Shown: positions 656-29,443 of the stretch, piece after piece
Numbering within the stretch: the first letter of the stretch is position 1
How the letters are laid out: each line of letters begins with the position of its first letter
Source: Chloroflexota bacterium
GTDB lineage: Bacteria; Chloroflexota; Anaerolineae; B4-G1
DNA: 64,000 nt
Assembly (NCBI GenBank): GCA_024232355.1
Contig: JAAEPW010000986.1
Location: 1-64,000, forward strand
Direction of reading: 5' to 3'
Position numbers and translations under genes: made by a program
Notes under the pieces: generated by a model
Told to the model about the DNA's origin: nothing
What the model saw: the letters and a program-made list of their open reading frames with translations, nothing else
Databases searched by the model: none

Positions 656-3019
656 CTATTGAAGACGTCGGTGGACATAGGTATGGATTTGTCTGGCGAG
701 GTCGCGACGGATACCCAGTGTAACCAAATCGTCAACTTGCAGAGTGGCTAGTTCGGTGAGGCTTTGGATGCCTGCCTGCTCCAAGCGTCGAATGGATTGT
801 ATACCGACGGTCGCTCTGGTTCCAGCGGAAAAAGTGCGACGGATGCTGCGCAGGACTGGTCCCAAGGGTGAGCAGTATTTGAGGTGTTCCTGGAGGTCAA
901 AGACCTGGTGGCGCATACGGCGCAAGCATTGTTTGACATTTCGGATACGATCCTGATCGGCCTTGCATTCCTCGCGTAGATGGTAGTAGAAGCAACGGAT
1001 ATCCAGGATCTTGGCCAGGCCTGAAAGCAACCAAAGATAGTTGTCGCGCCAACGTTCCTCGACACCCACCAGGTTATTGATCTGCCAGCGACGTTGTAGG
1101 TCGTCGACAGTTTTGCCCTGCCCCCGCTCGTAGAGGATGATGGAACGGAACATTGAGTGGTAAGTTCGCTTGTACGCCCACGTTTCAGCGTTTTTGCCAT
1201 TGTTGGGAGATGAAAGGCCCAGCGATCCCAGAACCTCGGGGGCACGGGAGGTCTCCTGCTGCCCGGCAATCCATTCACGGTATAGCAACGACGTGCGACC
1301 GGGCATCTCTTCCATCCACACGTCTACCTTGTCCACGAGGGCTTTGCTGAAGCGACGCAAGGTAGGTGCACGATTGTGAAGCAAGTCGAGGACGAGCAGG
1401 TGATCGAGCGGGTGCCAACCTCCCAGTAAGCGATCTGAGGGATCAACGGTCAGCAGGTCCCGAATGAGTTGAGCAAACCCGGCGGTTAGGTCGAGGGGAA
1501 GTACCGCACGAGTAGCCTTTAGGCCAAGGGTAGTGAGACGGTACTTGTCGTGTTCATCGCGCCAGGCCAGTACGCGCATCAAACTGGTGAGCCAGGTGAG
1601 GACATCAGGGATGTGAGTGATCAATGATTGGCCGCCAAGTGAATGATCGAAAAAGGTCTGCAAGCTCTCAATAGATAAGCCATTCTCCGCGTGACGAGCG
1701 AGCTGGGATGCAACATGCTTGGCAATCAAGGGGATATTCTGTTCAGAGGATGCCGCTTGCCGATTGGATCGGGTCGTCGCCCGCTCAAAGTGGGAAGTGA
1801 GGGAGGGTAGTTCTTCTTGGCAGAGTGCCTGAGCTAGTTCTCTAGCATTCCAAGCATCGTTGGCGCGCACGATGACAGCTGCGTGACCGGATTGATCCCC
1901 TCGACCGGCCCGCCCCATCATTTGCAGAATTTCGGTGAGGCCCAAAGGTCCCTCCCCGTAAAAGGTAGTATCGCGTACCAGGACGTGGGTTGCGGGCAGG
2001 TTAACGCCCAGAGCGAGGGCGGTTGTGGTGACTAAACAGCGTGATTGTCCAGTGACAAAGCTAGTCCGCACCACCCCACGCTGTTCTGCATTCATCTGGC
2101 CGTGGTAAGCACGAGGACCATCAGCACCAGCCAAGTCCCCCAGTTCGTTTCTCAGGAGTTTGGCCAAGCGCTCGGCTGAACGAGTCTGGTATACAAAGAT
2201 CAGGAGATTGGCTGCCGGATCGGCAAGTGTTTCCTGAGTAAATGCGAGTGCAACTAGGTCGGCTTTTTCGTCGGCCCCAAGTTCCAAGACCTGTTTTTTC
2301 AAAGAGGGATAGCGCTCGGTAACCTGGATCACATCACAAGGAGAGAGCCAGTCGCGCGCCCGATCCGTGTTGCCGAGTGTAGCCGAGAGCAGGATGATGC
2401 GAGGTGGTGCAGGAAGACAGAGCAAGTAGGTAATCAGGTATTCAAGCGTGGATCCCCGGTGAGGCGAGCTGATGAGGTGAGCCTCGTCCACACAGACGGC
2501 ATCTATGGAGGCAATCCAATCATCGTAATCGGGATTCCTGAGGATGGCGTCGAAGCGCTCGGGGGTGGCAATGATGATCTCGCCTTGCTGAGGAGGAGGC
2601 GCGGCAAAGCGCTCATCCTCTAACCGGTAGTCGCCGGTGGAAATGTGAACAGTGAACGGGCGGCCAAGGGCTTCTGATAGGCGTGGAGCAATGGACTCGA
2701 GCTCTTCCTGCTTTTCGCGGGCGATGGCGCGCAGTGGTTCGAGAAGGACGGCGCGACGTCCGTGGCGAACTGCTTCCAGAAGAGCAAACAGGCCCACGAG
2801 GCTCTTGCCACTGTTGGTGGGGGACGAGACGATGAGGTTGCGACGGTTCTCGAGGATGTGGTACTTGTCAAGGGCTAAAGCCTGCACCTGACGCGGCGAC
2901 GAACCTGGATTGAGGACATCAATCACTTCCGGCCAAGGGGAAGTGAGATCGAGATCCTCCCAACTTTGCTCAGGGGATTGTCCCGTTTTGCCTGAAATGC
3001 CAGCATCCAGTCTTTTCAT
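656..3019 (-). CDS. SF2 DEAH-box helicase with C-terminal HhH domain
   Basis: The predicted 787-aa protein is an ATP-dependent superfamily 2 nucleic-acid helicase of the Ski2/Hel308 style. Visible motifs: Walker A SPTNSGKS (residues 66-73), DEAH in VCVDEAHLI (about 170-180), SAT motif LLSATLGN, motif VI QMMGRAGRG. The last 50 residues form a helix-hairpin-helix-like repeat (RRLEQAGIQSLTEL, then VTLGIRRDLARQI), a usual non-specific DNA-binding element. The start codon overlaps the stop of the upstream tandem-HTH gene (TGATG), so the two are translationally coupled. A second SF2 helicase of similar size and HhH content is transcribed divergently just beyond. A role in remodelling or unwinding DNA for the locus is likely; the exact substrate is unknown. 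Confidence 0.9.
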   Translation of the reverse strand: MKRLDAGISGKTGQSPEQSWEDLDLTSPWPEVIDVLNPGSSPRQVQALALDKYHILENRRNLIVSSPTNSGKSLVGLFALLEAVRHGRRAVLLEPLRAIAREKQEELESIAPRLSEALGRPFTVHISTGDYRLEDERFAAPPPQQGEIIIATPERFDAILRNPDYDDWIASIDAVCVDEAHLISSPHRGSTLEYLITYLLCLPAPPRIILLSATLGNTDRARDWLSPCDVIQVTERYPSLKKQVLELGADEKADLVALAFTQETLADPAANLLIFVYQTRSAERLAKLLRNELGDLAGADGPRAYHGQMNAEQRGVVRTSFVTGQSRCLVTTTALALGVNLPATHVLVRDTTFYGEGPLGLTEILQMMGRAGRGDQSGHAAVIVRANDAWNARELAQALCQEELPSLTSHFERATTRSNRQAASSEQNIPLIAKHVASQLARHAENGLSIESLQTFFDHSLGGQSLITHIPDVLTWLTSLMRVLAWRDEHDKYRLTTLGLKATRAVLPLDLTAGFAQLIRDLLTVDPSDRLLGGWHPLDHLLVLDLLHNRAPTLRRFSKALVDKVDVWMEEMPGRTSLLYREWIAGQQETSRAPEVLGSLGLSSPNNGKNAETWAYKRTYHSMFRSIILYERGQGKTVDDLQRRWQINNLVGVEERWRDNYLWLLSGLAKILDIRCFYYHLREECKADQDRIRNVKQCLRRMRHQVFDLQEHLKYCSPLGPVLRSIRRTFSAGTRATVGIQSIRRLEQAGIQSLTELATLQVDDLVTLGIRRDLARQIHTYVHRRLQ

Positions 3020-3573
3020 CAGTCTCTGAACAAACGCTCCAAGGCAGGGAAAAGATCCTGTAACTCGGCAGCGTCCAGCAGATCAATTCGCTCACGCAAC
3101 CATTCTCTTCGTCGCCGATCACTAATGGGAGACATCGAAAGAAATATCGGATCGTCTTCGAGGTCAGTGTCGGACGGCAATCCAAAGAAATGGCAGAGTG
3201 CAACCTGGTTGGGTTTCTGTGGGCGTTGTTTCTCGGTACGCCATCGAGAAACCGTGTTCTTATCGGCTCCAGTGCCTGTTGCCAGGACCTTTCCTTCACC
3301 GTGCTCCAGGCTATCAAAGAGGTAGCGAAGGTTTTCTTGGAAGATATCTACTCTCTCCACCAGACGTTTGAATTGCAAATCCTCCTCGGTGACATTCGCC
3401 CTCTCTGCGATTTGCTCCTGCTCGTCGGGTAAAAGCTCAGCCCCTTTGAGCAGTGTTTTGGCACGATGCTGATCGCAGTCGGCCCAGTCTGCCAATTGCT
3501 CGGGCCAGTCTTTACGATCTACTCCTTCGTGCCAAAGTAGGTACTTTAGATTTTCAGATGTTTGATTTGACAT
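3019..3573 (-). CDS. Tandem helix-turn-helix protein, likely regulator of the divergent helicase genes
   Basis: The 184-aa protein appears to hold two related XRE-like halves. Residues about 8-65 (NLKYLLWHEG through AERANVTEEDL) and 80-135 (NLRYLFDSLEHGEG, then TGADKNTVSRWRTEKQRP) both resemble the five-helix XRE fold. The second has the clearer recognition helix. The remaining 50 residues are charged and helical. It is the first gene of a two-gene leftward operon with the helicase at 656-3019. Its start codon lies at the predicted transcription start, so the message is probably leaderless. Its position beside a divergent promoter with direct repeats suggests autoregulation. No enzyme domain is visible. 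Confidence 0.8.
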   Translation of the reverse strand: MSNQTSENLKYLLWHEGVDRKDWPEQLADWADCDQHRAKTLLKGAELLPDEQEQIAERANVTEEDLQFKRLVERVDIFQENLRYLFDSLEHGEGKVLATGTGADKNTVSRWRTEKQRPQKPNQVALCHFFGLPSDTDLEDDPIFLSMSPISDRRRREWLRERIDLLDAAELQDLFPALERLFRD

Positions 3574-3577
3574 AGCT

Positions 3578-3606
3578 ATTCTACCATACGACTATATTTT
3601 ATTCAA
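3578..3606 (-). promoter_or_regulatory. Sigma70-type promoter for the tandem-HTH/helicase operon (leaderless)
   Basis: Read leftward: -35 TTGAAT (complement of 3601-3606), 17-bp spacer, -10 TAGAAT (complement of 3578-3583). The start codon is 4 nt beyond the -10 box, so transcription should begin at or next to the ATG, and no ribosome-binding site is visible. Direct repeats CGACTATaTTTTA (3589-3601) and CGACTATTTTA (3631-3641) lie in this divergent region and could be operators. Confidence 0.6.
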
Positions 3607-3644
3607 GTTATATACGTTAAATGCCATTTTCGACTATTTTACAC

Positions 3645-3673
3645 TTGACTTTTTCATCATAAGAAACTATCAT
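3645..3673 (+). promoter_or_regulatory. Sigma70-type promoter for the rightward helicase/TGT operon
   Basis: TTGACT (3645-3650), 17-bp spacer, TATCAT (3668-3673). Predicted transcription starts near 3680. This excludes the upstream TTG at 3673 as a start codon and favours ATG 3706. Confidence 0.6.
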
Positions 3674-3705
3674 TGAATCTGATAAGCACAGATGAGGCAT
3701 CTCAA

Positions 3706-6072
3706 ATGCTTTTACCCCCACAGAAAGAAGTACTTGATATTGATCTGCTCAACTCTGGGTTCAGTTGCGTGCTGCAGATGCCCACCGGAAGCGGAAAGAC
3801 GTGGCTGGCAGAACTGGCCATTGAGTCGGTGCTGAAGAGAGGATATCGCGCCGTCTATCTCGCACCACTGCGGGCGTTGGCGAGTGAACTGAGCAACCGG
3901 TGGCAGGCACGTTTTGCGGGTTGGAAGGTGGGCATCTTTACCGGCGACTATGGCAAACCAGGACTCCCCTACCCCGTGCCGTTCCGTGAGGCGCAACTCT
4001 TGGTGATGACGCCGGAGCGTCTGAATGCTTGTACGCGAGCCTGGCGCAGTCACTGGACCTGGATCCCCGAGGTGGACCTGGTGGTCGTGGACGAACTGCA
4101 CTTGTTGGGAGATACTCATCGAGGTCCCCGACTGGAGGGCACAATCTCGCGGATGCGGCGGCTGAATCCCTTTGTACGCTTTGTTGGCCTTTCGGCAACG
4201 CTGGGCAACCGAGGAGAACTGGCCGATTGGCTGGAGGGGGTGGAATATGTGTCGGCGTGGCGGCCTATCCCGTTGCGGTGGTGCGTGGTGCGCTACCGAA
4301 AGGCAACGGATAAGCCCATGTTGATGGCTGAACAAGTGGCGCGGAACGTGCAGGCCGGGGGCAAGAGCCTGGTCTTTGTGCAAAGCCGCAGGCGGGCTGA
4401 GGAATTGAGCCGATACTTGCAGACGACAGGGTTGCGCGCCCGACACCACCATGCTGGTCTGGGGCGCACTGAGCGACAAAGTGTAGAAAACGGGTTCCGA
4501 GCACACGAGATGGATGTGCTGGTAGCGACCTCGACCTTGGAGATGGGGGTGAACCTGCCAGTGCGGCAAGTGGTATTGTATGACTTGCAAGCGTTCGACG
4601 GGGTTGATTTTCGTCCGATCTCGACAAACAGCGTATGGCAGCGAGTGGGCCGCGCGGGACGACCCGGCCTGGACGACGAAGGCGAAGCAGTGCTGCTGGC
4701 ACCGGCGTGGGACCGGCAAGCGGAACGATACGAGAGAGGAAAGTTCGAACCGATCCGCTCGGGGTTGGCCGACCGCCGGGCACTGGCAGAGCAAGTGGTG
4801 ACGGAGGTGGCCAGCGGATTGGCCCGGACGTGGCCTCAACTGGAACGGGTGTTTGCCCAATCGCTGGCGGCGCGCCAGGAGATCCTGCCCAAGGTGAACG
4901 TGGTCATCACAGAAATGCGTGACGCAGGGATGATCCAAGAGCGTCTCGACGAGAAAGCTAGAGAACCCCGCTATCTGCTGAAGGCAACACGGCTGGGGCG
5001 TATCGCGGTGCGACACTTTTTGGCACCGGCGACGGTGTTGACGTTCCGCCGAACGCTCGAGACCTTTGATTTGTTGACTTTTCTGGACTTGCTGATCATT
5101 GTGGCGTGCAGCGACGACTGCCAGCCCGTTTTGCCGGTGGACTTTGAGGAATTGGACGCGATCGCGTGCAACCTGGCAGGGGAATCTTCGTTCTTGCTCC
5201 AACATCCACGTGTAGAAATCGTGGAGGCGGTGAATGTGGACGGTAAGCGGTTGCTGGCGGCCGTCAAAATGGCGCTGGTGACCCGGGCCTGGACCCGGTG
5301 TTCGGATGCCAATGAGGTGGCAGAGCGACACGACTGTTATCCATTCGAGGTGGCACGCCTGAGCGAGGCAATGGACCGACTCTTGCTGGCGATGGCGGCC
5401 ATCCCTGAGAAACCGGAGGAGGAAGAGGGAAAGGAAGAACCAAAGATGGTGGACGATGAGGATATGCCGGTGCGAGAGCGGATACGGGCACTGCAACGGA
5501 TGGTATGCACAGGACTGGACGAGTTCGCGGCAACGCTGACGTTGGTGGACGGCATTGGTCCAAAGATGGCCAAGCGACTTTTGGAAACCGGAATCGAGGA
5601 CATCGAAGACCTGGCCCTGGCAGAATCGGCCGAGTTGGCGGAGATGCGAGGTCTCTCCAAAGAGCGGGCCGAAAGGTGGATTGCCAAAGCTGAAGAAGTA
5701 GTCGAGACACGATCTGCGTACCGATATCGAGAAACCGGTCCTTATCTGAACATCACCCCCCCGGGTTGGCCCTCTGAACTCGACCCTTACCGATTGCGAC
5801 GGGCACTGGACCTGACAGTGGTGGGCGTGGACGGTGGCGCGCACCTGGTGACGGGAGGGCTGGAACCACACATCGTGCGGTTTGTAGACGGTGAACTGAC
5901 GTGCGATTGCGTAGACGCCAGTCGAGGGAACCTGTGCAAACACCGGCTCGCTGTGCGGATGCAGCGCGGCGACCGGCAACTCTACAAGCTGGCGCGGCAG
6001 ATTGGGCGCGCACCAGCGAGTGGAAAGATCGATCTGTTTGACCTGTGGTTTGGTAATCATTCGATCAAGTGA
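3706..6072 (+). CDS. SF2 DELH-box helicase with HhH and SWIM zinc finger
   Basis: A 788-aa SF2 helicase. Motifs: QMPTGSGKT (Walker A, about 25-32), VVVDELHLLGD (motif II, DELH), GLSATLGN, and QRVGRAGRPG (motif VI). Near residues 620-680 there is an HhH pair (VDGIGPKMAKRLLETG and MRGLSKERAERW). The C-terminus carries a SWIM-type zinc finger, CDC-x7-CKH, which typically binds DNA or protein. The chosen ATG has GAGG 8 nt upstream and lies downstream of the predicted transcription start; a TTG at 3673 would sit inside the -10 box. It forms an operon with the TGT paralogue 40 nt downstream and is divergent from the other helicase. The SWIM finger is unusual for a bacterial Hel308-like helicase. 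Confidence 0.9.
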   Translation: MLLPPQKEVLDIDLLNSGFSCVLQMPTGSGKTWLAELAIESVLKRGYRAVYLAPLRALASELSNRWQARFAGWKVGIFTGDYGKPGLPYPVPFREAQLLVMTPERLNACTRAWRSHWTWIPEVDLVVVDELHLLGDTHRGPRLEGTISRMRRLNPFVRFVGLSATLGNRGELADWLEGVEYVSAWRPIPLRWCVVRYRKATDKPMLMAEQVARNVQAGGKSLVFVQSRRRAEELSRYLQTTGLRARHHHAGLGRTERQSVENGFRAHEMDVLVATSTLEMGVNLPVRQVVLYDLQAFDGVDFRPISTNSVWQRVGRAGRPGLDDEGEAVLLAPAWDRQAERYERGKFEPIRSGLADRRALAEQVVTEVASGLARTWPQLERVFAQSLAARQEILPKVNVVITEMRDAGMIQERLDEKAREPRYLLKATRLGRIAVRHFLAPATVLTFRRTLETFDLLTFLDLLIIVACSDDCQPVLPVDFEELDAIACNLAGESSFLLQHPRVEIVEAVNVDGKRLLAAVKMALVTRAWTRCSDANEVAERHDCYPFEVARLSEAMDRLLLAMAAIPEKPEEEEGKEEPKMVDDEDMPVRERIRALQRMVCTGLDEFAATLTLVDGIGPKMAKRLLETGIEDIEDLALAESAELAEMRGLSKERAERWIAKAEEVVETRSAYRYRETGPYLNITPPGWPSELDPYRLRRALDLTVVGVDGGAHLVTGGLEPHIVRFVDGELTCDCVDASRGNLCKHRLAVRMQRGDRQLYKLARQIGRAPASGKIDLFDLWFGNHSIK

Positions 6073-6112
6073 ATGGGACACGGATGAACACTGATTCCTT
6101 GAAAGGAGAGCT

Positions 6113-7033
6113 ATGACTGCTGAAAAACGTACCCTCGTTACACGCCGGGGCGTGATCCGGTTCCCGGCCTATATTCCAGTGACGACGTTCGGCGACAGAT
6201 ACCCGCTGGACAAACTGGTGCAACCGTACCTGCCCAGGCTAGCGCCAGCGATGATGGTCAGTTACTATTATGCGCGCCAGATAGAGGGAACACTTCGGTT
6301 GCCACTCTTGGTCGATTCGGGTGGGTTCGTGTCGCTGTTCAAGAGCGCACAAGTGATCCAGACGGGCAAATTGGGCACGATCCAGATTGCGAATGACGAT
6401 GGGGTGGACACGATCCATCCCAAGGATGTACTGGACCTACAGGAACGAATCGCGGACGTGGCCTTTGGCCTGGATTTTCCGATCCCGCCTAGTATGGACG
6501 AAAAGAAAGCGCAGCATCGAATGGATCTGACCATCGCCAATGCCTACTGGGCACTGGAAAACCGGCGACGCAAGGACCTGCCGTTATATGCCTGTGTACA
6601 GGCTTGGGATGCAGATAGTGCGCGCCAGTGTGCCCAAGCGTATGCTGGTGCAGCCTTTGACGGAATTGCAATTGGCGGGCTGGTCCCAAGAGCACGTAAT
6701 CTGGATTTGGTGTTATCTATTGTTAAGGCTGTGCGGATGGAGGTCAGTGATCTGCCTCTTCACGTTTTTGGGCTAGGTAAACCCGAAATCGCGAACGCAC
6801 TTTTTGAGGTTGGTACTGATTCAGTAGATTCTAGTTCCTATGTCAAACTGGCAGCGGATGGGCGACTGTGGAGCCACCCCCGTATGCATTATCAAGATCC
6901 ATCACCTATTGATCGGTTGCACCTCGCTCTCTGTAATCTGGCTTTGGCCACTGGTCAAGCACTTCCTTTGCCTATGACAAAAATGGTCTTTACCACGCAT
7001 AGTCTGAGTATGCATACAAGTTTGGATCTATGA
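6113..7033 (+). CDS. tRNA-guanine transglycosylase (TGT/DpdA) paralogue without zinc site
   Basis: The 306-aa protein has the TIM-barrel core of the TGT family, which swaps guanine for a 7-deazaguanine base. Landmarks: VDSGGF (67-72), FGLDFPIPP with a candidate catalytic Asp121, AIGGL (186-190, the base-binding GGL loop), and VDSSSY with a candidate nucleophile Asp239. The usual C-terminal zinc motif (CxCxxC...H) is absent; the protein ends soon after the barrel. A good ribosome-binding site (AAGGAG) precedes the ATG. Its 3' end overlaps that of the convergent herA by 6 bp. In eukaryotes an active and an inactive TGT paralogue form a heterodimer, and the zinc-containing paralogue at 23.8-25.9 kb is the obvious partner. 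Given the DNA-processing neighbours, DNA rather than tRNA is the likelier substrate. Family assignment is firm; substrate is inferred. Confidence 0.85.
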   Translation: MTAEKRTLVTRRGVIRFPAYIPVTTFGDRYPLDKLVQPYLPRLAPAMMVSYYYARQIEGTLRLPLLVDSGGFVSLFKSAQVIQTGKLGTIQIANDDGVDTIHPKDVLDLQERIADVAFGLDFPIPPSMDEKKAQHRMDLTIANAYWALENRRRKDLPLYACVQAWDADSARQCAQAYAGAAFDGIAIGGLVPRARNLDLVLSIVKAVRMEVSDLPLHVFGLGKPEIANALFEVGTDSVDSSSYVKLAADGRLWSHPRMHYQDPSPIDRLHLALCNLALATGQALPLPMTKMVFTTHSLSMHTSLDL

Positions 7034-8830
7034 GTAGCGATCTTCTAGCCATCGAGCAATGCGCTCGTTGGCATCGGGTGTTTTCACCGGAATGGGGATC
7101 GCCTCTAGACCAGTGGCATTATGACTCATCAAAAGCCATTGCCCCTTTTTGAACTTGAAGGTTTGGTTTAGTAGCTCCTCGCTCATACCAAATGCTTCAG
7201 CAACCGCTTGGCGATCTGACTTGCGCGGCAACTTGGAGATAAAGTAGGTGTGGGGTTGAGCCATAATGTTGGTATCTAGGTAGCGAATCCGTTGGGTAGC
7301 AATGCCGATTCCCAGGCCGAATTTGCGCCCCCGACGAGCCAAAGTCTGGGCAATCTCGGCCGATTCTTCGTAGGATCCCTTTTCTCCTCTACGAATGAAC
7401 TCGTCTGCCTCATCGAAAATGAAGGATGCCAGAGGATCAATGCGCCCAGTCTGGCGACGGTTTTCGTACACGGCCTCACCCAGTTGCTTTGTGAAAGCTC
7501 TCATCTCGTGCGGGTTATGTGCTTGGATCACCCATAGCGATGAGTGGCCGAGATCGTCCAAGTCAGTGACAATCTCTTCTAGCGTGGTGCTGGCTGCAAA
7601 TGTCTCGGAGGTAGACCGTTCCAAGTCTTTCAGTTCAGTCAAGATCGGGCCATAATCCTCCGTGAATGTTTTATCTTGGGCCAGAGCTTGTTGAAGGCCT
7701 TGATGAATTCTTTGGGCAAGGTCAGGCGTGAATACGGTCTGCTTGTAATCTGCTCCGCGCATAGTAGCTCTGAGTACATTCTTGGCAATGGCACTCCTCT
7801 TGTTTATGTTGGGGCCACGCCGCGTCTTTCCCCAGGGTGTATTTTCGGTGAAAAAAAGGTCCCATACGGTTGTGCTTTGGGCCACGTTGAAATAGCGCAA
7901 GCGCTTGCTTTGTACCAGATCCCGCAAGCCTTTAGCGACCAGTGGTCTAGTTTTAAGCAGGGCCTTGGGCAATAGTGTGTAACGTACTAACTGTTGCGTG
8001 GCTTCATCAAGGGATGGTGCACCGGAGAGATCATTGATGTATTTGAAAAGACCTTCGGGCAATGTGTTGCGTCCGAGTGTCAAGATTCGACCCTGTACCT
8101 GATCATTCAGTAACTGGTCAATTAACAGACCGGTATACTCGCTCATCAAATCGAAAAAGACCAGCTTTAAAGGTTCGGTCGAATCCGCAAGAACCTTGGC
8201 TACAATGGTTGAGAGCAAGTTGGACTTGCCAACCCCGGTGAAACCAAAAATGGCAAAGTGAGTACGATACAATTCTTCAATCCGGAGTAGAATCTCAACA
8301 GTATCATCTCGGGCCATCGTTCCAATGGTGGTCAGGTTTTGCTCATATTCTTGGTCGATGCCATTGTTGGCAACCAAATTCGAGTACTCGGAATCGAGGA
8401 TGTGCGCTTTGGCCCCCACCATGCCAATATTGCTTTCCAGGTCAATCGTTGGTTCTCCGTCCAGTGGTTCCACAATCTCAAGATTGGTGGGGATAGCTAA
8501 CACTTGAATCTTTGTGGTATCCTCAGTAGATACATCCTCTTGGGTCTCCCAATCCTGAGATGCGCTACGGGCAGCCTCTACTACAAAACCAGGATAACCA
8601 CTGGCGCTGCCCTGTAGAGCATAGTGCATAGGTAGAATAGTGGTTACTTCTAGCACACTATAGCGGCGCAGATCACCATCTGATGCAAAGTTGGGGACAG
8701 CCAACAGTGTTCCTTCTTGGATCTCATTGATGGCGCGGCGCGTGTAGTCGAACCATACCCGGTAACGATACCTCGTCTCTGGGGCATCGGCCAATTCCAT
8801 CAACGTGCCTTCCATATTTTGGACAAACAT
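7028..8830 (-). CDS. herA: HerA-type DNA-translocating ATPase (copy 2)
   Basis: The 600-aa protein matches the HerA/FtsK-like hexameric ATPases that pump double-stranded DNA. The N-terminal 150 residues look like the HAS beta-barrel. Walker A is GFTGVGKS (196-203), Walker B SFIFDEADEF (about 470), followed by an arginine-rich segment LARRGRKFGLGIGIATQR typical of HerA. GGAGG stands 5 nt before the ATG. It is the last gene of the leftward operon and follows a NurA gene by 39 nt, the standard HerA-NurA pairing in which the ATPase powers the nuclease. A second HerA-NurA pair lies in the same operon. Confidence 0.92.
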   Translation of the reverse strand: MFVQNMEGTLMELADAPETRYRYRVWFDYTRRAINEIQEGTLLAVPNFASDGDLRRYSVLEVTTILPMHYALQGSASGYPGFVVEAARSASQDWETQEDVSTEDTTKIQVLAIPTNLEIVEPLDGEPTIDLESNIGMVGAKAHILDSEYSNLVANNGIDQEYEQNLTTIGTMARDDTVEILLRIEELYRTHFAIFGFTGVGKSNLLSTIVAKVLADSTEPLKLVFFDLMSEYTGLLIDQLLNDQVQGRILTLGRNTLPEGLFKYINDLSGAPSLDEATQQLVRYTLLPKALLKTRPLVAKGLRDLVQSKRLRYFNVAQSTTVWDLFFTENTPWGKTRRGPNINKRSAIAKNVLRATMRGADYKQTVFTPDLAQRIHQGLQQALAQDKTFTEDYGPILTELKDLERSTSETFAASTTLEEIVTDLDDLGHSSLWVIQAHNPHEMRAFTKQLGEAVYENRRQTGRIDPLASFIFDEADEFIRRGEKGSYEESAEIAQTLARRGRKFGLGIGIATQRIRYLDTNIMAQPHTYFISKLPRKSDRQAVAEAFGMSEELLNQTFKFKKGQWLLMSHNATGLEAIPIPVKTPDANERIARWLEDRYS

Positions 8831-8869
8831 TCAATCCTCCAGTAAGTTGACTTGGGACGAGCATTCCGA

Positions 8870-10717: not shown

Positions 10718-10791
10718 AGTTAGTTCCTATGTTACCTTTCAAATCTAGCACTGCATTTGGGTTAGGCCTATCCTACAAAATTCTTGCTTGA

Positions 10792-10830: not shown

Positions 10831-10853
10831 TCCGGATCGTCTGGAATAGAATA

Positions 10854-15332: not shown

Positions 15333-15349
15333 TACGCACTCTCCATACA

Positions 15350-16519: not shown

Positions 16520-16528
16520 CACGTCACC

Positions 16529-18838: not shown

Positions 18839-18841
18839 AGA

Positions 18842-20761: not shown

Positions 20762-20781
20762 AAATAGCTCCTTCTGGACGC

Positions 20782-22581
20782 TTAGTTGAGAGTGTCGAAA
20801 TCCGGTACTTGCACTGGCAACGGCACATCCTTATACGATGCAGATACAACGACCTGTCCTCGACTCATCACCTGCAGCTCTCGCTCAAAACCCATTAGAT
20901 CAGACGAGGCATTACGGATCGCCTCGCGCCGCTCATTCTCGTTACCCAAGGACATGGTCAACTCGGTATTGATCTGAGTGAGCACTCCCTGATCGATCTG
21001 GCTGACTTGCTGACTCACCACGGTTAAGCCAATGCCGAACTTGCGCCCCTGGCGGCTGATATCGCGAAAGACTGAGCCGAACCTCATCCGCTGAGGGTTG
21101 AGGACAGTGGGGGCCTCCTCGATGACGACGTTGACGTGGGGCAAGTGATCGGGGGATTTGACCTGATCACCCTCAAGATAGGGCAATTCGCCAGTCTCCA
21201 ACCGGCGCACGAGTTCGTCAGCCAGACTGCGCATCCCGATCTGCCCTTGGGTATCGTCGTTACCCAAAGCCTGGCGGATCTCGGCGCGCAAATCGTCGGG
21301 GGTCTCGGCAGCGCGCAGCGCCTTGCGGATGGCAAAGAGGACGCGGGCGACTATGGTAGTGAGGATGAACTGCTCCATCTCGTTCATCAGCGTGGTCTCG
21401 ACAACGATAACGCGCCCGTGCTCGAGGGCGCAGAGGATATCGGGGAGCGTGGAAACGTAGGGGAAACCCATCTCGGGATCAAAGCGGGTAAAAACTCGGG
21501 TGTGACCGTGGCGCAGAAAACCCACGCGGCGCTGCACCGCTGCGATGGTACTGGGCAAGTATTCGGCGGCCAGCTCAACCTGGTCATCCAGACCACCGGT
21601 CTCCCCCAGCAAGAGTCGCCCGATCCACTGCTCGCCGCGAGCGGCGTAAAACTGGTTGGAAAAGGCGATCTGTTGCTCGGTGAACTCGACAGTGCTGACC
21701 AGGTCATCGGGGACAATATCGGCACGGGAGAGAAGGACACGACGTTCCAAACCATCGTCACTCAGATTCCGGGCCGAGAGATAGTAGAAAGGCACAATCA
21801 GTTCCTGTTGTTCAGCTTTTGCGTAGGAGGTTACAATACCGTGGATACCATCGGCCCCACCGGTGGACGCGTGCCAGTGGCGGAACTCGTCGTGAGGATC
21901 AATGGCAAAGATAGAGGCCGGAGGACCTTGTACTTTTTCCTGGACAACGGCGCGATTGTGCTCTAGGATCGAGCGGAGGAATACCATCATCAGGTTGCTC
22001 TTGCCGCTGCCGGTACGACCAAAGACACCGATGTGATGAGAAAGGGCATACACGGGGAGATAGATGGGCACGCCAGCGAGCGCTTGTTCACCGGCGAGCA
22101 GGTCGCCGACGTAGAGACCAGACTCTCCCAACTGACGGCGCATCAGCGTACGCACGACGGAGGCAATGCCCGGATTGGTGTGATCTACATAGTAAACGTC
22201 AGAGAGATGCTGGGGCAGGCGACGAGGCCGGTGAAAATCCCACTGGTCGGAGGCAGAATCCCACTCGGCGTAGCCCAGGACGATGCCGCGCAGTTCGATG
22301 AGCTGTTCGTCAGTCAGGTCCTGGGCCAGATAGGAATCGGGCATCACAAGCTTGTTGCGGGCGACCTCGCTCATCTCTACCAGAGGGCTGAGAATATTGG
22401 CGTACTGGGTGGTGCGAAAGATATAGAACCGATCCGGCCCGCGCCGACAGGGAAGGAGGAAGAGATCGCCGACGGCAACATCGGTATTGCGGGCGATGAC
22501 GGTCAGTTGATTGGTGTTCCCTTCAGCCAGAACACCAAAACGTTCGCCTAACCCCTTGAGCAGTTCTTCCATATCGGCCAT
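20782..22581 (-). CDS. herA: HerA-type DNA-translocating ATPase (copy 1)
   Basis: A 599-aa HerA/VirB4-like ATPase with an N-terminal HAS-barrel region, Walker A GRTGSGKS (188-195), Walker B VNVVIEEAPTVL (about 465-475) and the HerA-type segment ISRQGRKFGIGLTVVSQQ. It differs markedly from HerA copy 2 (EEA rather than DEA in Walker B), so the two are not a recent duplication. It follows NurA copy 1 by 9 nt, and AGAGGTGA precedes the start. Confidence 0.92.
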   Translation of the reverse strand: MADMEELLKGLGERFGVLAEGNTNQLTVIARNTDVAVGDLFLLPCRRGPDRFYIFRTTQYANILSPLVEMSEVARNKLVMPDSYLAQDLTDEQLIELRGIVLGYAEWDSASDQWDFHRPRRLPQHLSDVYYVDHTNPGIASVVRTLMRRQLGESGLYVGDLLAGEQALAGVPIYLPVYALSHHIGVFGRTGSGKSNLMMVFLRSILEHNRAVVQEKVQGPPASIFAIDPHDEFRHWHASTGGADGIHGIVTSYAKAEQQELIVPFYYLSARNLSDDGLERRVLLSRADIVPDDLVSTVEFTEQQIAFSNQFYAARGEQWIGRLLLGETGGLDDQVELAAEYLPSTIAAVQRRVGFLRHGHTRVFTRFDPEMGFPYVSTLPDILCALEHGRVIVVETTLMNEMEQFILTTIVARVLFAIRKALRAAETPDDLRAEIRQALGNDDTQGQIGMRSLADELVRRLETGELPYLEGDQVKSPDHLPHVNVVIEEAPTVLNPQRMRFGSVFRDISRQGRKFGIGLTVVSQQVSQIDQGVLTQINTELTMSLGNENERREAIRNASSDLMGFERELQVMSRGQVVVSASYKDVPLPVQVPDFDTLN

Positions 22582-22590
22582 AGGTCACCT

Positions 22591-23811
22591 CTATGCGTGT
22601 CCGGTAGCGCGGGAGGCATCCCGAAACAGAGAGCGCTTCATCCCCGCTTCGACTGCCGCGTTAATGATCTGCTTGCGCAGTGCCACTCGCTCAGCTTTTG
22701 TCAGGGAGGCCCGATCGTGGGCAGCCTTGATGGGATAGGGATAGCCATAGCAACGCTGGTCGTGCCCGGCATAGTCCAAATCCTGCAAGATGCGACACTC
22801 ATTGGCGCGCGTTTCTTCTGCGGTCTCCCCTTGAACCCGTTCGTGCCAAAAAAAGCTATCCATATCCAGACGCATCACGGGCGTAGTACGGTGGAAGCGA
22901 AGCAGGTAAGTGACCGCCCCAGGTGGCGGAAGTCGACGCCCACTAGTGAGTGAGAGACTCCATTCATCTAGATCGGGCAGTGGCAGACGCAGATACCAAT
23001 GTTCGGCAACCTGCCCTTTCTCCAAATCCCTCTTTTCTTGAGCCAGTTCGTCGACCAATTCAATCTGAGGAAGCCCATGAGACTTGGAGAGGGCTATGAA
23101 GGCTATACCCCGCTGCCGAGCCTCGACACAGCAAAGGCGTTTCAGGTGTTCGTAGAAGAGACTCTCGGCTGGCCTACTAACGAAAGGTAGGGAGAGAGTA
23201 CCATCTGTCAAGATGTACGAAAGGGATTCACTCTCTTGAATGACTCGCAACGCCGCACCGAGTTCTGCGGTTGAACGTAACTGAATGCCGATATTGCCAG
23301 CATCAGCAGCATGAGGATAAATCAGGCCCTCTAGCAATGCTGTGATCGTGTTGGGCTTGTGTGATTCGGATGCTTTGAGGTGCCGATAGTCCGATCCCTC
23401 GATCACATCGAGAAGCGGCGCGCCAGCGAGGTAGGCGAAGGCACCACCCAAGGCCTGCACACGCATCTCTTTATTCTCAGGTAACCAGGTAAAGTGGACG
23501 AGCGGTTCAGGCAGTGGGCCTATCTCGCGCAACCCGGAGAGGGGTTCGGATTCGTAGGTCGTTCCATGGGCTAACGTGACATAGACGAATGAATCGGCAT
23601 AGCTGACCGAGGGAAAATCACCAGTACCATCGACACCGGCGAACCGAAGATTCTGACACGAGGTCGTATGATCAAACAGCGTCAAGTGATCTCGGATGCA
23701 GTCTTTTTCATCCTCACCGATCCGGGGTTGCTCCTCCCAGGATTTCATCCGAACAGCAACTTGTTCGATCTGCTCGCGAACTGTTGAACGAAGGTTGAGG
23801 TCAAAACGCAT
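22591..23811 (-). CDS. nurA: NurA-family nuclease (copy 1)
   Basis: A 406-aa protein of normal NurA length. Catalytic motif I is FAGVDGTGDF (Asp61), a second acidic motif sits in YILTDGTLSLPF, and the C-terminus has the basic PYPIKAAHDRASLTK segment common in NurA. It directly follows the large TGT-like gene (22-nt gap) and precedes HerA copy 1, the standard HerA-NurA operon order. Confidence 0.88.
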   Translation of the reverse strand: MRFDLNLRSTVREQIEQVAVRMKSWEEQPRIGEDEKDCIRDHLTLFDHTTSCQNLRFAGVDGTGDFPSVSYADSFVYVTLAHGTTYESEPLSGLREIGPLPEPLVHFTWLPENKEMRVQALGGAFAYLAGAPLLDVIEGSDYRHLKASESHKPNTITALLEGLIYPHAADAGNIGIQLRSTAELGAALRVIQESESLSYILTDGTLSLPFVSRPAESLFYEHLKRLCCVEARQRGIAFIALSKSHGLPQIELVDELAQEKRDLEKGQVAEHWYLRLPLPDLDEWSLSLTSGRRLPPPGAVTYLLRFHRTTPVMRLDMDSFFWHERVQGETAEETRANECRILQDLDYAGHDQRCYGYPYPIKAAHDRASLTKAERVALRKQIINAAVEAGMKRSLFRDASRATGHA

Positions 23812-23833
23812 TACTCATATCCTCTTTATTCCC

Positions 23834-25894
23834 TCAAAACAGTGAAAGTTGCTTATGCCCTTCTGACTTGTGAACAGACATGCTGAGGTTTACGTTTTCT
23901 TCAAGCAAAATCCGCTGGAGCGAACGATAGAAAGCATAAATGTTGTGAAAACCTCTGCGCCGGTTGCGATTATTGCCTCGGAAAATGATGACCTCGATAC
24001 CATCACGACGGCAAATGTCACACGGGCACGACTTCCACGGAGCAGATTCTAGTGTCGCTCGAAGCATTGGTCGAATGTCTTTGCGCTTGGGTGTAATCAA
24101 ACGATCATACTCATCAATTACATCAAGTGTTTCTTCCACTGACAAAAGGCCTTTGTCAAAATCTCGTACAGCTTTCATACAGAGCTTTTCAAGTCGTTTC
24201 ACCTTTTCGGCATCAGCTCGACCCTCTTGTACCATTCGCTTAGCCCGGAAGCTCTTGCCCGCCTCAGGGATACGAATTGCCGTATAGAAACCGTTTTCCG
24301 TCATATAATTCTGCCCGCCACTTCCCATCCAGGCTCGGCGGAGAAAGGATGCACTATCTACTGAACGTACACCTAAACTGGCAAAGTCGGGCATCACTTG
24401 TAGGCGAGCAATACCAAACAAGTGGATGGCTACAGTTTCCGGCACGACCTCGTGAACGGCCGAGAGTATGCGCATAATTTCTTTTGTGCTAGACCGCACT
24501 AATCCGCCAAGAGCAATGTACTTGTAGCCCATCGTGACGTATTGACGGGCGGCCTTAGCGTAGCTCTCAGCATCCCAACCCTGCACAGCACCGATGGGTT
24601 CCCAAGGCAAATCACGCTTTCGGTGCTCTTTGAGAAACTCTGCGGCGTTTTGGATGGTCAGTTCGTAGCGAAAGTGTTTCTGATCCTCAGTGGCAGCAAC
24701 AACTAGATGATCGATAGATACACCATAGTCGAACCCCAGGCGTGTGTAGTACTCGAGGATCTCGTCGGTCGTATATGGGGGGTTCTCTTCCTGGATGTAC
24801 CCAAACGCCCCGCAATCGCCCATAATGGGAAACTCGGGTGGTACGCGTAGGTAACGATGCACACCCATCTCGTTGATGCGCTTCTTTTTTTTCTTGGTCT
24901 TTTCAGCCACAACTTTGGAGACAAGGATCCCATCGTAGTTGGGCTCGGGGTACATTTGGTGAGCATAGGTCTCGTTGGACCAATCTCCACGTCCGCCAGA
25001 GTGAGTGTCGGTCAAAAAGTCATAGTCGGGGTCGACAAGGTCGTCCCACTCGGGAATAAAATAGCGCAACCTCTGTTGGTGTGGTTTGTTCCACCACGAG
25101 TCCGGGATATTGATGACATAGTCCACGTCAGGGTTTGGGCGGGCCTTGCTGCTCTTGGCACTTTTGGGTTTGGCAGGGCTGTCGGGTGGTGAGGAATCGC
25201 CATCGAGCAAGGATAGAACATCAATGGCAGGATCGAGCAATTGAGCCAAGAGAGAGTCACCTTTGTCTGCCAAGTGATGCAAAATGCGTTTGGCCAACTC
25301 TCCTTTGAGGCCGACCAGGCCACACGAGAAGCGTTTCGTCTCAGCGTTGGAGACCGGGACGGCACGCGGCGTTCCTTGCCCCTTTACCCGCTTCTGCGAT
25401 GCCTTGCCGGTGAAAAAGAGCGCGGGCGCGGCGAAGCGGACGGTGTCGTCGAGGGCGAGGGCACGGAGGTAGGAATCGCCCAGGAGAACGAGAAGCAGGT
25501 CTGCCGGTTGAGCAAGCAGTTCGCGGGCACCTTGAGACACACGGAGATGCTCGGCCCAAGTATCTATCTCCTTGGCCTTCATCCCTTGGAAGGTGCACTC
25601 GTAGGGCACGATCTCGCGAGCGCCGGGGATGAGCCCATAGCCAGCGGAGAGGATCCAGAGGTCGAGGCTATCGGCGCCATATTTCTCACGAAATCGCTGC
25701 ACGCCATCCATCAGGCGGACGTGCTGTATGCCGGTGTAGAGGTCCTCGGCCGGAGTGCGAAAGTCGGCCAGTCGATCCTCCAGTGCCTGGAACTGCTCAG
25801 AGTCGTGCAATCGCTCGAAATCGCTCTGGGCGAGCTGATTTGCGGGGGAGTGTTGTTTTTCTCCGGTACAGGATGTGATGATGCGGATTTTCAT
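23834..25894 (-). CDS. DpdA-like transglycosylase fused to a YaaA/DUF6884-like domain
   Basis: The 686-aa protein has two parts. Residues 1-165 (RIITSCTGEKQ, LWILSAGYGLIPG) resemble the YaaA/DUF6884 fold. A proline/lysine-rich linker follows near 232-255. Residues about 280-665 are a complete TGT-type catalytic region: GDCGAF (359-364), VSIDH with Asp395, ALGGLV (461-466), SVDSASF with a candidate nucleophile Asp513, and an intact zinc site Cys623-x-Cys625-x2-Cys628 with His650. DpdA of dpd islands is a TGT paralogue that inserts preQ0 into DNA, and a YaaA-like protein (DpdC, from memory) acts on that base afterwards. Here both folds may sit in one chain. The ATG overlaps the mazG-like stop (ATGA). 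Assignment to the TGT superfamily is firm; DNA as substrate is inference. Confidence 0.85.
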   Translation of the reverse strand: MKIRIITSCTGEKQHSPANQLAQSDFERLHDSEQFQALEDRLADFRTPAEDLYTGIQHVRLMDGVQRFREKYGADSLDLWILSAGYGLIPGAREIVPYECTFQGMKAKEIDTWAEHLRVSQGARELLAQPADLLLVLLGDSYLRALALDDTVRFAAPALFFTGKASQKRVKGQGTPRAVPVSNAETKRFSCGLVGLKGELAKRILHHLADKGDSLLAQLLDPAIDVLSLLDGDSSPPDSPAKPKSAKSSKARPNPDVDYVINIPDSWWNKPHQQRLRYFIPEWDDLVDPDYDFLTDTHSGGRGDWSNETYAHQMYPEPNYDGILVSKVVAEKTKKKKKRINEMGVHRYLRVPPEFPIMGDCGAFGYIQEENPPYTTDEILEYYTRLGFDYGVSIDHLVVAATEDQKHFRYELTIQNAAEFLKEHRKRDLPWEPIGAVQGWDAESYAKAARQYVTMGYKYIALGGLVRSSTKEIMRILSAVHEVVPETVAIHLFGIARLQVMPDFASLGVRSVDSASFLRRAWMGSGGQNYMTENGFYTAIRIPEAGKSFRAKRMVQEGRADAEKVKRLEKLCMKAVRDFDKGLLSVEETLDVIDEYDRLITPKRKDIRPMLRATLESAPWKSCPCDICRRDGIEVIIFRGNNRNRRRGFHNIYAFYRSLQRILLEENVNLSMSVHKSEGHKQLSLF

Positions 25895-26202
25895 TGGCGT
25901 GTTGCTTCCTGCCAGGCTTTTGAATCCCGTAGATCGTATTTCTCAAAGGTCTTGGCGATCGAACGGTCCAGGTCAATGCCGGTGACGTTGGCAAAGGCGG
26001 CCAGGGTAAAGAGTAGGTCACCAACCTCGCCCTCTAAGTCTACTTGAGTCTTGCGAGGTCTCAGTCCTTCTTGACGTTGGAGGGCAGCGGCGATCTCGCC
26101 CAGTTCTTCGGTGAGGCGGGCGAGAATTTGGAACTGGTCCCAGTAGTCGCCATTTTGGCGGATCCACTGGTCAACGGTGGTTTGGAGGTCGGTGAGGTTC
26201 AC
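25891..26202 (-). CDS. MazG-like nucleotide pyrophosphohydrolase
   Basis: A 103-aa all-alpha NTP-PPase. The metal-binding signature is clear: LTEELGEIAAAL (about 28-39) and EGEVGDLLFTLAAFA (about 57-71), the ExxE...ExxD arrangement. Such enzymes hydrolyse NTPs or dNTPs to monophosphates and are common in phages and defence loci. The GTG start overlaps the xre stop by 4 bp, with GAGGAG just upstream, so it is coupled to the regulator. It might clean the nucleotide pool or limit dGTP, but that is only context. Confidence 0.88.
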   Translation of the reverse strand: MNLTDLQTTVDQWIRQNGDYWDQFQILARLTEELGEIAAALQRQEGLRPRKTQVDLEGEVGDLLFTLAAFANVTGIDLDRSIAKTFEKYDLRDSKAWQEATRQ

Positions 26203-26459
26203 AATGAGTTCTCCTCAAGATGCAAATCCATTTCATCGTCAATCAAGGTCTCGACGGGCACATTCACCAATCGGGCATAAGCTAGTAGTGTGGGAAGGTC
26301 TGGTTGTCTATCACCGTTTTCCCATTCGTAGACACGGGTCCGGCGTGATGAGCTAATCTTGCCCAGTTCTTCGGCCATCTGGTCGAGGGTCCATCCTTGG
26401 TGCTCTCGGATCATACGGAGTTTCTCACCGAGTCGCTTTGGGATCTGCTTTGGATTCAT
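26199..26459 (-). CDS. XRE-family transcriptional regulator
   Basis: An 86-aa Cro/CI-type helix-turn-helix protein: LGEKLRMIREHQGWTLDQMAEELG (helices 1-3), SSRRTRVYEWENGDRQPDLPTL (helix 4 and beyond). The ATG at 26459 is chosen because GGAGAC lies 4 nt upstream and the domain begins just after it; the frame is open further upstream but crosses a hairpin and palindrome. The 16-bp palindrome adjoining its ribosome-binding site suggests autoregulation. It is the second gene of the large leftward operon. A decayed homologue with the same upstream elements lies at 33.2-33.5 kb. Confidence 0.88.
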   Translation of the reverse strand: MNPKQIPKRLGEKLRMIREHQGWTLDQMAEELGKISSSRRTRVYEWENGDRQPDLPTLLAYARLVNVPVETLIDDEMDLHLEENSL

Positions 26460-26468
26460 TGCGTCTCC

Positions 26469-26484
26469 GTTCTCAATTGAGAAC
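26469..26484. promoter_or_regulatory. 16-bp perfect palindrome, probable XRE operator
   Basis: GTTCTCAATTGAGAAC is perfectly palindromic and sits immediately upstream of the xre ribosome-binding site. The same 16 bp recurs at 33256-33271 in front of the decayed xre copy. Conservation in otherwise diverged flanks argues for function, either as repressor operator or as an mRNA hairpin masking the ribosome-binding site. Confidence 0.65.
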
Positions 26485-26497
26485 AGGCATAACGAAA

Positions 26498-26527
26498 ACC
26501 GGCTGCTGTCGATTGGCAGCAGCCGGT
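26498..26527 (-). terminator. GC-rich hairpin followed by TTTT, attenuator or weak terminator
   Basis: An 11-bp stem (ACCGGCTGCTG paired with CAGCAGCCGGT, 8-nt loop). Read leftward it is followed by TTTCGTT, so it has the shape of an intrinsic terminator between the transporter and the xre gene. It may separate transporter expression from the rest of the operon. An equivalent stem stands at 33211-33241. Confidence 0.55.
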
Positions 26528-26636
26528 CAGATTCCATACCATATAGGCAACTAGCTTATTCATCGTTGTAAGGTGTACTCTTGAGTTGCTTCAGCTCGTG
26601 CCATTCACTAATCAATGCGACGATCTCTCTCACCCG

Positions 26637-27254
26637 TCAGGTCGTTGCCATCCCCTGACCCTGGCGTACCTTTACAGCGTAGATCAGGGGAATGCTGATC
26701 ACTGTCACTACCATCTTTACCACATACTGTCCTACAATCAATGGTAACACGGGCATCACACCGACAAAGGCAATGGTGATAAAGACTACACTATCAACAA
26801 GCGTGGACACAGCATTGCTGGCCAACACTCGCGCCCAACGATGTCTCCCCACTCGCTCACGCCACCAGGCAAACACTTGGACATCAATCATCGAACTGAT
26901 CAGGTATGCGATGAGGCTGGCAGCTACGATGCGCCAAGTCGAGCCTAGCGTGCTCACAAAGGCAGCTTGCCCCTCCGCACCGAAGAACGGGGCGGGCGGG
27001 AGCCAGATGGCGAATTGGAAATATGCGGCCAGCAGTAGGTTGGCCAGTAAGGCCGCATATACGACTTGGCGCGCGCCTTTTTTGCCGAGCCGGTCGTTGA
27101 CGAGATCAATGAGGGTGAATGTGAGGGCATAGATAAAGACGGCTGCCGGTACAACGATATTTCCGGGAAGGATAACCGGCTTGCCTGCGGTGGTGTTGGC
27201 AATGAGCTCGCAGGCGATGTAGAGACTGACGACGAGAATTGTATCAAAGGGCAT
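26637..27254 (-). CDS. yhhQ: YhhQ-type queuosine-precursor transporter
   Basis: A 205-aa integral membrane protein with about six hydrophobic segments. It matches the YhhQ/VUT family, which imports the queuosine precursors preQ0 and preQ1: start MPFDTILVVSLYIACELIANTTAGKP, then FTLIDLVNDRLGKKGAR and the late segment SNAVSTLVDSVVFITIAFVG. The ATG at 27254 has AGGAG about 9 nt upstream; longer readings of the frame are excluded by the promoter at 27308-27336. It is the promoter-proximal gene of the large operon. Its presence with two TGT paralogues is the main reason for proposing 7-deazaguanine chemistry. Confidence 0.9.
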   Translation of the reverse strand: MPFDTILVVSLYIACELIANTTAGKPVILPGNIVVPAAVFIYALTFTLIDLVNDRLGKKGARQVVYAALLANLLLAAYFQFAIWLPPAPFFGAEGQAAFVSTLGSTWRIVAASLIAYLISSMIDVQVFAWWRERVGRHRWARVLASNAVSTLVDSVVFITIAFVGVMPVLPLIVGQYVVKMVVTVISIPLIYAVKVRQGQGMATT

Positions 27255-29439: not shown

Positions 29440-29443
29440 CACA

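Follow-up and report, generated by a model that had tools for sequence, protein, structure and literature searches.

A recurrent Dpd variant with a fused DpdC–DpdA enzyme and HerA–NurA in place of most usual restriction genes

What does a DNA-guanine transglycosylase do beside a HerA translocase and a NurA nuclease? The question is raised by the left 27 kb of a 64,000-nucleotide stretch of Chloroflexota contig JAAEPW010000986.1 (hereafter, the window, meaning the whole stretch analyzed), in which a sequence-only reading had proposed a candidate 7-deazaguanine DNA modification and restriction system, perhaps distinct from the known dpd islands, with two tRNA-guanine transglycosylase (TGT) paralogues and two HerA–NurA pairs. 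We find that this cluster is a real and recurrent variant of Dpd, in which HerA–NurA replaces most of the usual restriction genes, and in which protein families, predicted folds, and gene context argue for DNA marking and restriction. The explanation that we favor, and hold to be probable, is that in this cluster, conserved in eight phyla, a fused DpdC–DpdA enzyme predicted to write a 7-deazaguanine in host DNA works with HerA–NurA and a restriction-endonuclease-like protein that would likely destroy unmarked DNA. The passages of an EcoSal review that deal with the amido-deazaguanine mark (PMC12707154) describe the restriction activity tied to it as not further explored. In this cluster, the same DpdA and DpdC families are joined by another set of nucleases, whose relatives (HerA–NurA and Hel308) have been studied in detail, and two named cyanobacterial strains, whose sequences are complete, carry it on plasmids. 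It therefore opens to test how the mark is read, whether DpdB is replaceable, and why a zinc-less TGT retains its active site.

The main transglycosylase is a DpdC–DpdA fusion

The main TGT of the cluster, encoded by dpdCA (23834..25894, minus strand), is a DpdC-like (DUF6884) part fused with a DpdA DNA-guanine transglycosylase, whose predicted active-site residues are intact. Over residues 276-661, it scores 461.1 bits with the NCBIfam DpdA equivalog NF041059, well over the cut-off of 200, PADLOC gives the protein 421 bits for DpdA, and its family profile matches the solved DNA-guanine transglycosylase PDB 7ui4 with an E of 1e-112. The N-terminal part, within residues 1-208, has two PADLOC DpdC matches (45.1 and 39.8 bits) and scores over the cut-off for DUF6884; it belongs to the DpdC family, and is predicted to convert preQ0 to the amide. 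Among 1403 homologs scored, the best 120 all have a TGT domain according to precomputed domain annotation, and 119 of these 120 have DUF6884 as well. Six residues are invariant in 30 aligned sequences, of which, from known TGTs and the alignment to 7ui4, we take Asp360 and Asp513 to be the catalytic Asp, and Cys623, Cys625, Cys628, and His650 to be zinc ligands. With DpdA and DpdC fused in one protein, the cluster is therefore a variant of Dpd. Family evidence thus speaks for the 7-deazaguanine modification and restriction system proposed earlier, but not for one separate from Dpd; what stands of its distinctness is a nuclease set unlike that of dpdA–K in a recurrent unit without detectable DpdB.

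The cluster recurs in eight phyla

Scanning genome contigs with a DpdCA profile yielded 242 relatives, the best 80 loci of which were analyzed. Sixteen genomes, chosen for nurA/herA2 or tgt2 and read over regions of 13 to 60 kb, make up 17 systems together with the window. The recurrent set consists of dpdCA, nurA, herA, a restriction-endonuclease-like slot, a zinc-less TGT, and two Hel308/Ski2-like helicases, and eight phyla are found among the labelled rows (a 59-row DpdCA tree and the plasmid hosts). The gene set accordingly recurs as a unit in other genomes, as the sequence-only reading had supposed.

In the window, dpdCA is followed on the same strand by the core nurA (22591..23811; PF09376 23.6 bits, cut-off 21), the adjoining herA2 (20782..22581; PF01935 51.2 bits, also over cut-off, with a Walker A motif at 188), and unk639 (18842..20761), a 639-aa protein with two predicted PD-(D/E)XK folds that occupies the restriction-endonuclease-like slot and had earlier been called simply a PD-(D/E)XK protein. 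The other members lie to the left, with hel2 (3673..6072, plus strand; a Ski2/Hel308-like SF2 helicase with a helix-hairpin-helix; PF00270, PF00271, PF14520) and tgt2 (6113..7033, plus; 306 aa; PF01702 80.7 bits) forming a rightward pair convergent with the leftward operon. Diverging from hel2 are hth184 (3019..3573, minus), which encodes a small HTH-like protein with a weak HTH_31 match below cut-off, and, downstream of it, hel1 (656..3019, minus; an SF2 helicase, Hel308/Ski2-like by profile; PF00270/PF00271). In the 17 systems, dpdCA is present in 17, herA2, tgt2, and hel2 in 15 each, nurA and hel1 in 14 each, and hth184 in 13, several of the gaps falling on short contigs (G001, G009, G011, G013). 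The accessory genes are less regular (uvrD 12, pddexk 11, tmtA 5, herA1–unk615 2, and dpdJ/K 2). The smallest full set, in Paenibacillus tyrfis, comprises dpdCA, nurA, herA2, the slot, tgt2, hel2, hth184, and hel1, and has no uvrD–pddexk within the stretch read.

Of the 80 loci, 15 have nurA or herA2 no more than about 10 kb from dpdCA, and in 11 of these, as well as in L001, the one viral contig locus with dpdCA, nurA starts within about 120 bp of the end of dpdCA. Window-type tgt2 was found in 15 of the 16 chosen genomes (E<=1e-72), 14 times on the contig of dpdCA (in G013 it is on another contig, and in G001 the contig ends), including eight of the nine genomes whose 10-kb flanks had shown no full copy (L022 showed an edge fragment). 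DGQHR (DpdB-like) genes lie near dpdCA in 16 of the 80 loci, mostly cyanobacterial; these share the DpdC–DpdA enzyme, but none is among the 15 loci with nurA/herA2, nor are the DpdH-like (21/80) and DpdE (18/80) genes. In the 17 systems, we found no DpdB-like gene with a DGQHR-family profile, which a divergent DpdB could escape, no DpdE-like gene, and one DpdH-like gene (in G014), DpdD, DpdF, DpdG, and DpdI being outside that search. The window itself was scanned with Pfam (35 open reading frames) and PADLOC (20 proteins, none right of 44.4 kb). No DpdB (DGQHR/DndB-like ATPase) is among the matches listed for those 20 proteins, no DpdD, DpdG, DpdH, or DpdI is among those listed for the proteins scanned left of 44.4 kb, and the DpdE and DpdF profiles have, among the matches listed, only weak, below-cut-off ones to the helicases. 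The earlier remarks that the classic dpdB partner is unseen and that the nuclease set differs from dpdA-K therefore both hold.

Core genes are linked and co-inherited

It could be that independent defense systems merely lie side by side, only dpdCA and the preQ0 supply being concerned with modification while HerA–NurA, the helicases, and the second TGT are unrelated neighbors. The region is a defense island, with SIR2, STAND, and caspase genes at 33-58 kb, and tmtA (5/17), herA1–unk615 (2/17), and uvrD–pddexk do act as accessories, but the adjacency of dpdCA, nurA, and herA2 argues against such an account for the core, as does what we found in plasmids. Across 72,556 plasmid records (dpdCA counted at ≥80% of length, hel2 at E<=1e-60), herA2 and nurA occur twice each, hel2 three times, dpdCA five times, and tgt2 six times, and the same two plasmids, pNOS3756_2 (NZ_AP017297) of Nostoc sp. 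NIES-3756 and NZ_CP014001 of Picosynechococcus sp. PCC 73109, hold all five genes. The rarity of herA2 elsewhere, with none (E<=1e-60) in 982 other sampled genomes of three phyla, for which few candidates were scored per genome, and the presence of tgt2 in 15 of 16 chosen genomes also speak against chance neighbors. By phylum, herA2 was found in 1/392, 1/195, and 1/398 genomes, and tgt2 in 1/386 sampled cyanobacteria, in each case only in the genome at the center of the sample; since both genes are rare, phylum sampling tests linkage weakly.

Co-inheritance points the same way. Pairwise distances of dpdCA, nurA, herA2, tgt2, hel2, and hel1 correlate, with r from 0.44 to 0.92 and no more than 4 of 2000 permutations reaching such values, kinship between species being uncorrected (dpdCA–nurA 0.56, dpdCA–herA2 0.54, dpdCA–tgt2 0.49, nurA–hel2 0.92). 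The uvrD–pddexk pair is correlated within itself (r 0.98), and pddexk–hel2 is an exception to its independence (r 0.61, 19/2000 permutations as high). On the 59-row DpdCA tree, the herA label changes six times versus 16.4 times when shuffled (0/500 as low), so the association with herA is clustered, yet was gained or lost several times. Taken with the adjacency and the plasmids, these correlated distances make a side-by-side arrangement of independent systems improbable in our judgment.

The base is likely preQ0 and the target is not tRNA

Near dpdCA, sequence-labelled families in the 80 loci include QueC in 34, QueD in 38, QueE in 34, and FolE2 in 13, at least one of the four being present in 43. 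Curated families confirm the in-cluster labels for QueC in 10 genomes (TIGR00364, which we take to be the QueC family), QueD in 12 (PF01242), and FolE2 in 7 (PF02649), while QueE is over cut-off in one genome, with below-cut-off matches elsewhere. A preQ0-synthesis or YhhQ gene is found in the stretch read of 15 of the 17 systems, some of these supply genes, which may be housekeeping, lying as far as about 23 kb from dpdCA; anywhere in the genome, QueC is over cut-off in 14 of 16. Because QueD/E/C and FolE2 genes adjoin dpdCA in related loci, the base placed is likely preQ0 and preQ1 is unneeded, which keeps only the first half of the earlier suggestion that imported preQ0 or preQ1 is used. 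Similarly, the YhhQ-type 7-deazapurine precursor transporter expected in recurring operons is present in the window (yhhQ, 26637..27386, minus; TIGR00697 116.5 bits, cut-off 50.95), but relatives carry QueD/E/C and FolE2 instead in related loci.

Since dpdCA and tgt2 both belong to the TGT superfamily, and the best NCBIfam model for tgt2 is the archaeosine TGT (72.6 bits, cut-off 350), the two could serve tRNA, making queuosine or archaeosine, with the nuclease genes doing something else. We rejected a tRNA role, which we regard as very improbable: dpdCA passes the DpdA equivalog cut-off, the two proteins reach only 22.1 and 45.1 of the 306.75 bits of the tRNA Tgt model TIGR00430, a separate housekeeping Tgt is over its curated cut-off in 15 of 16 genomes, and tgt2 has no zinc site.

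The second transglycosylase is zinc-less

While tgt2 is over the Pfam TGT cut-off, it is without the CxCxxC...H zinc site. Asp68, Asp121, Gln163, Gly188, Gly189, Leu190, and Asp239 are nevertheless identical in 15 of 15 sequences, and align with what we take to be the guanine pocket and catalytic Asp of TGTs. Its GGLVP motif is similar, in the alignment, to the GGVVP of archaeosine TGT, and would therefore fit preQ0 over queuine. In a 43-row tree, a branch (95/90) separates tgt2 from DpdA, from housekeeping Tgt, and from the short TGTs of a zinc type, of which one of 11 rows (L047) grouped with DpdA. We thus ruled out that tgt2 is a recent copy of dpdA: both TGTs reported earlier are present, but the second belongs to a zinc-less clade of its own.

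What might it do? One possibility, a sub-case of the favored explanation to which we give some credence while leaning against it, is that TGT2 is a catalytic modification partner, as part of a heterodimer or as a second-site writer, outside restriction. A short zinc-motif TGT of another kind adjoins dpdCA in Bacillota and Chloroflexota loci, as such a partner might, but in our small sample tgt2 distances track those of hel2 (r 0.76), hel1 (0.71), and nurA (0.62) above those of dpdCA (0.49). A more speculative role, which we find doubtful, is that of a restriction-arm sensor. Carried along DNA by the Hel308-like helicases, the zinc-less TGT would test guanines by transglycosylase chemistry, staying unengaged at 7-deazaguanine-marked sites, whereas an unmarked guanine would give a covalent or abasic intermediate licensing HerA–NurA and the restriction-endonuclease-like protein. 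If this were true, the writer and the reader of self and non-self would be two lineages of one enzyme fold.

The full base-binding site of TGT2 and its co-variation with helicase and nuclease would also suit the reverse logic, in which the cluster attacks DNA bearing 7-deazaguanine, such as that of modified phages, and TGT2 reads or removes the mark. Phage 7-deazaguanines exist, according to the relevant passages of PMC6884629. Nonetheless, the same operons hold DpdA, DpdC, and a preQ0 supply; these genes would have the cell mark its own DNA and are unneeded for targeting a mark, making this reversal quite improbable.

In 50,697 phage records, tgt2 had no match at 1e-5, and in viral contigs its profile gave 17 pattern matches, none confirmed. 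Relatives of these short TGTs are found in other settings. A solitary tgt2 lies amid methyltransferase and replication genes on a plasmid of Nostoc sp. MS1 (L112:19977-20912), which has no hel2 (E<=1e-60) and no separate dpdCA match, and a Deinococcus ficus plasmid has a UvrD helicase, a tgt2 of about 40% identity, and a hel2 relative (L113:12221-17864). Beside other dpdCA loci, mainly in Bacillota and Chloroflexota, there is a zinc-type short TGT (L041:12963-13913). Cyanobacterial dpdCA loci have instead a 287-aa protein (L027:11520-12383) with no Pfam match, which an HHalign comparison with DpdCA (prob 94, 87 columns) suggests to be weakly TGT-like.

Comparison with known systems

Like the Dpd islands (dpdA–K, Salmonella Montevideo), the cluster has the DpdA and DpdC families with preQ0 supply genes or YhhQ nearby, but it has DpdC fused to DpdA, and HerA–NurA, the restriction-endonuclease-like slot, the zinc-less TGT, and Hel308-like helicases instead. 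The islands based on dpdAB have many compositions, with YhhQ in about 9%, according to passages of a survey that required dpdB (PMC11888242), which would therefore miss clusters of the window type. In parts of a BREX paper (PMC12839542), DpdB is tied to preQ0 insertion, yet called dispensable in some clusters. The same passages describe BREX-related capture (BRC), which, like the window, has a TGT with a HerA translocase, but its building blocks are PglZ, DUF6079, STAND, and DUF4007, and both DpdB and DpdC are missing from it. We rejected BRC membership, as PglZ, DUF6079, and DUF4007 are absent from the 35 window open reading frames scanned with Pfam. BRIGADE, as presented in passages of PMC12458937, also combines 7-deazaguanine genes with a non-standard restriction set, but two YprA-like helicases are usual in it, and halophilic archaea are the only hosts in which it was detected. 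This assignment was rejected too, the core being without a YprA-like helicase; the window has one DpdJ-like (YprA-family) gene, outside the core, and DpdJ is in 2/17 systems. Uncharacterized Dpd-like classes are also mentioned in those passages of PMC12458937. The HerA–NurA of archaea and Deinococcus, and the Sir2-HerA and DUF4297-HerA defense systems (in the passages concerned of PMC12948488), likewise join a HerA pump to an effector such as a nuclease, whereas the HerA–NurA of the window is tied to a DNA base-modifying enzyme. As the passages of PMC11888242, PMC12839542, and PMC12458937 are without DpdA together with HerA–NurA, we call the cluster a new variant of Dpd. Among the listed titles and beginnings of abstracts of open-licence papers, none names a DpdA–HerA–NurA system, although it may be in print elsewhere.

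A proposed mechanism

In the explanation that we favor, YhhQ (or QueD/E/C and FolE2 in relatives) would supply preQ0, the DpdA half would exchange guanine in DNA for it, and the DpdC half would hydrolyze it there to the amide (dADG). In the role of DpdB, the zinc-less TGT and the Hel308-like helicases would likely open the DNA and present or check guanines. The first cut in unmarked DNA would be made by the slot protein with its two PD-(D/E)XK folds, HerA then feeding the ends to NurA. UvrD with the Cas4/AddB-like nuclease would be an exchangeable second nuclease cassette, and MazG may remove modified nucleotides.

Several observations weigh against this scheme. Since DpdB is found in none of the 17 systems, the route of preQ0 insertion is only predicted, and for two genomes (G001 and G003) the stretch read contains no preQ0 gene. 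The split between nurA/herA2 and DpdB-like genes is statistically weak (Fisher p 0.033), and a Clostridiales genome (G014, from L022) with the cluster also holds, farther out, DpdJ/K and a DpdH-like gene. With the best 80 of 242 loci and 16 pre-chosen genomes, the percentages are not population frequencies. Neither uvrD nor pddexk co-varies with dpdCA (r -0.01 and -0.04, respectively), tgt2 occurs without dpdCA on the Nostoc MS1 plasmid, and the Deinococcus ficus plasmid has distant relatives of tgt2 and hel2 and no dpdCA match. Finally, the slot protein has indistinct (D/E)xK residues in its N-terminal half, which may therefore be inactive.

Nucleases, helicases, and accessory genes

The predicted folds of the slot protein are McrC-like in its N-terminal half and BstEII-like PD-(D/E)XK in its C-terminal half, the fold searches listing other nucleases too, while a PDB sequence search gave only chance-level matches. 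In HHalign, the unk639 family matches two other slot families, c7 (prob 97 over 541 columns) and c14 (prob 92 over 79 columns). The best solved match to hel2 is ASCC3 (E 7e-73), with Hel308 2p6r at E 7e-67, its NCBIfam Hel308 score of 237 bits being below the cut-off of 1200; the best NCBIfam profiles for hel1 are all below cut-off (PRK02362, 179 bits, cut-off 887).

From yhhQ to pddexk (position 15350), all genes are leftward, neighbors overlapping by as many as 4 bases or standing at most 99 bases apart, with gene starts being provisional. Between yhhQ and dpdCA are an XRE-type regulator (26199..26537, minus; PF01381 44.8 bits) and mazG (25891..26202, minus; a nucleotide pyrophosphohydrolase; PF03819 42.5 bits). 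A relative of mazG is found in genome G001, and the annotations of the two plasmids give a MazG-domain gene for Picosynechococcus and a nucleotide pyrophosphohydrolase gene for Nostoc. Past unk639 come uvrD (16529..18838, minus; UvrD/AddA-like helicase; PF00580 162.7 bits; best NCBIfam model addA_Gpos, below cut-off) and pddexk (15350..16522, minus; Cas4/AddB-like PD-(D/E)XK nuclease; PF12705 49.8 bits), in which four Cys (28, 365, 368, and 374) are conserved in 12 sequences and may have an iron-sulfur role. On the same strand follow tmtA (10854..15350; PF25794, PF13020), encoding a sacsin ATPase/NOV_C giant, and a second pair, unk615 (8870..10717) and herA1 (7028..8830; PADLOC PDLC01055 273.5 bits, Walker A motif at 196). 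Residues 10-1496 of the 1498 of TmtA match PADLOC PDLC03969 (TmtA) with 1395.9 bits, so that the sacsin-DUF3883 giant is of the TmtA type, presumably that of the Tiamat system. The 615-aa unk615 is NurA-like by predicted fold, with a predicted winged-helix insertion; it is weakly similar to the core NurA in HHalign (prob 15, E 0.0018), and had no match in a PDB sequence search.

These genes behave as accessories, and we rejected tmtA, herA1–unk615, and uvrD–pddexk, the last a separately co-inherited cassette, as parts of the core. The sacsin giant, the UvrD–PD-(D/E)XK pair, and both HerA–NurA pairs that had been assigned to the system are thus in the window, but the core holds one pair only. 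The named genes were otherwise correctly placed and their families agree with profile matches, including YhhQ, MazG, two HerA, UvrD with the Cas4/AddB-like nuclease, and two NurA, the first by PF09376 and the second by predicted fold; overlooked were the DpdC domain, hel1 and hth184, and the DpdJ/DpdK-like genes at 36.7–42.1 kb.

The right-hand flank

Between yhhQ and the right-hand genes are two overlapping leftward open reading frames (27474-31519; 468 and 952 aa), neither of which matches a family over cut-off or has a relative among those listed for the 16 genome regions. Next comes a SIR2-NACHT protein (33467-36697) with pentapeptide repeats and a C-terminal, intein-like HINT domain, which suggests self-cleavage upon activation. 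Outside the core operon, a trio spans 36690-44400, made of a DpdJ-like helicase (36690..41579, plus; PADLOC DpdJ 554 bits; NF041067 529.6 bits, below the cut-off of 800), a DpdK-like PLD nuclease (41576..42109, plus; PADLOC DpdK 79.8 bits; NF041068 74.4 bits, below the cut-off of 100), and a TPR protein. Near dpdCA, related trios occur in G014, the Clostridiales genome, as well as in L027, L048, and L051, so the one in the window may be a second effector arm that shares the mark. A multi-part conflict system occupies 44483-57841, with kinase-FHA-ATPase, SIR2-caspase-EAD2, EAD2, MoxR-like AAA, VWA, and TPR-STAND genes. Beyond it, a tyrosine integrase and a replication-relaxation family protein (58349-61367) hint at a mobile element at the right side of the island.

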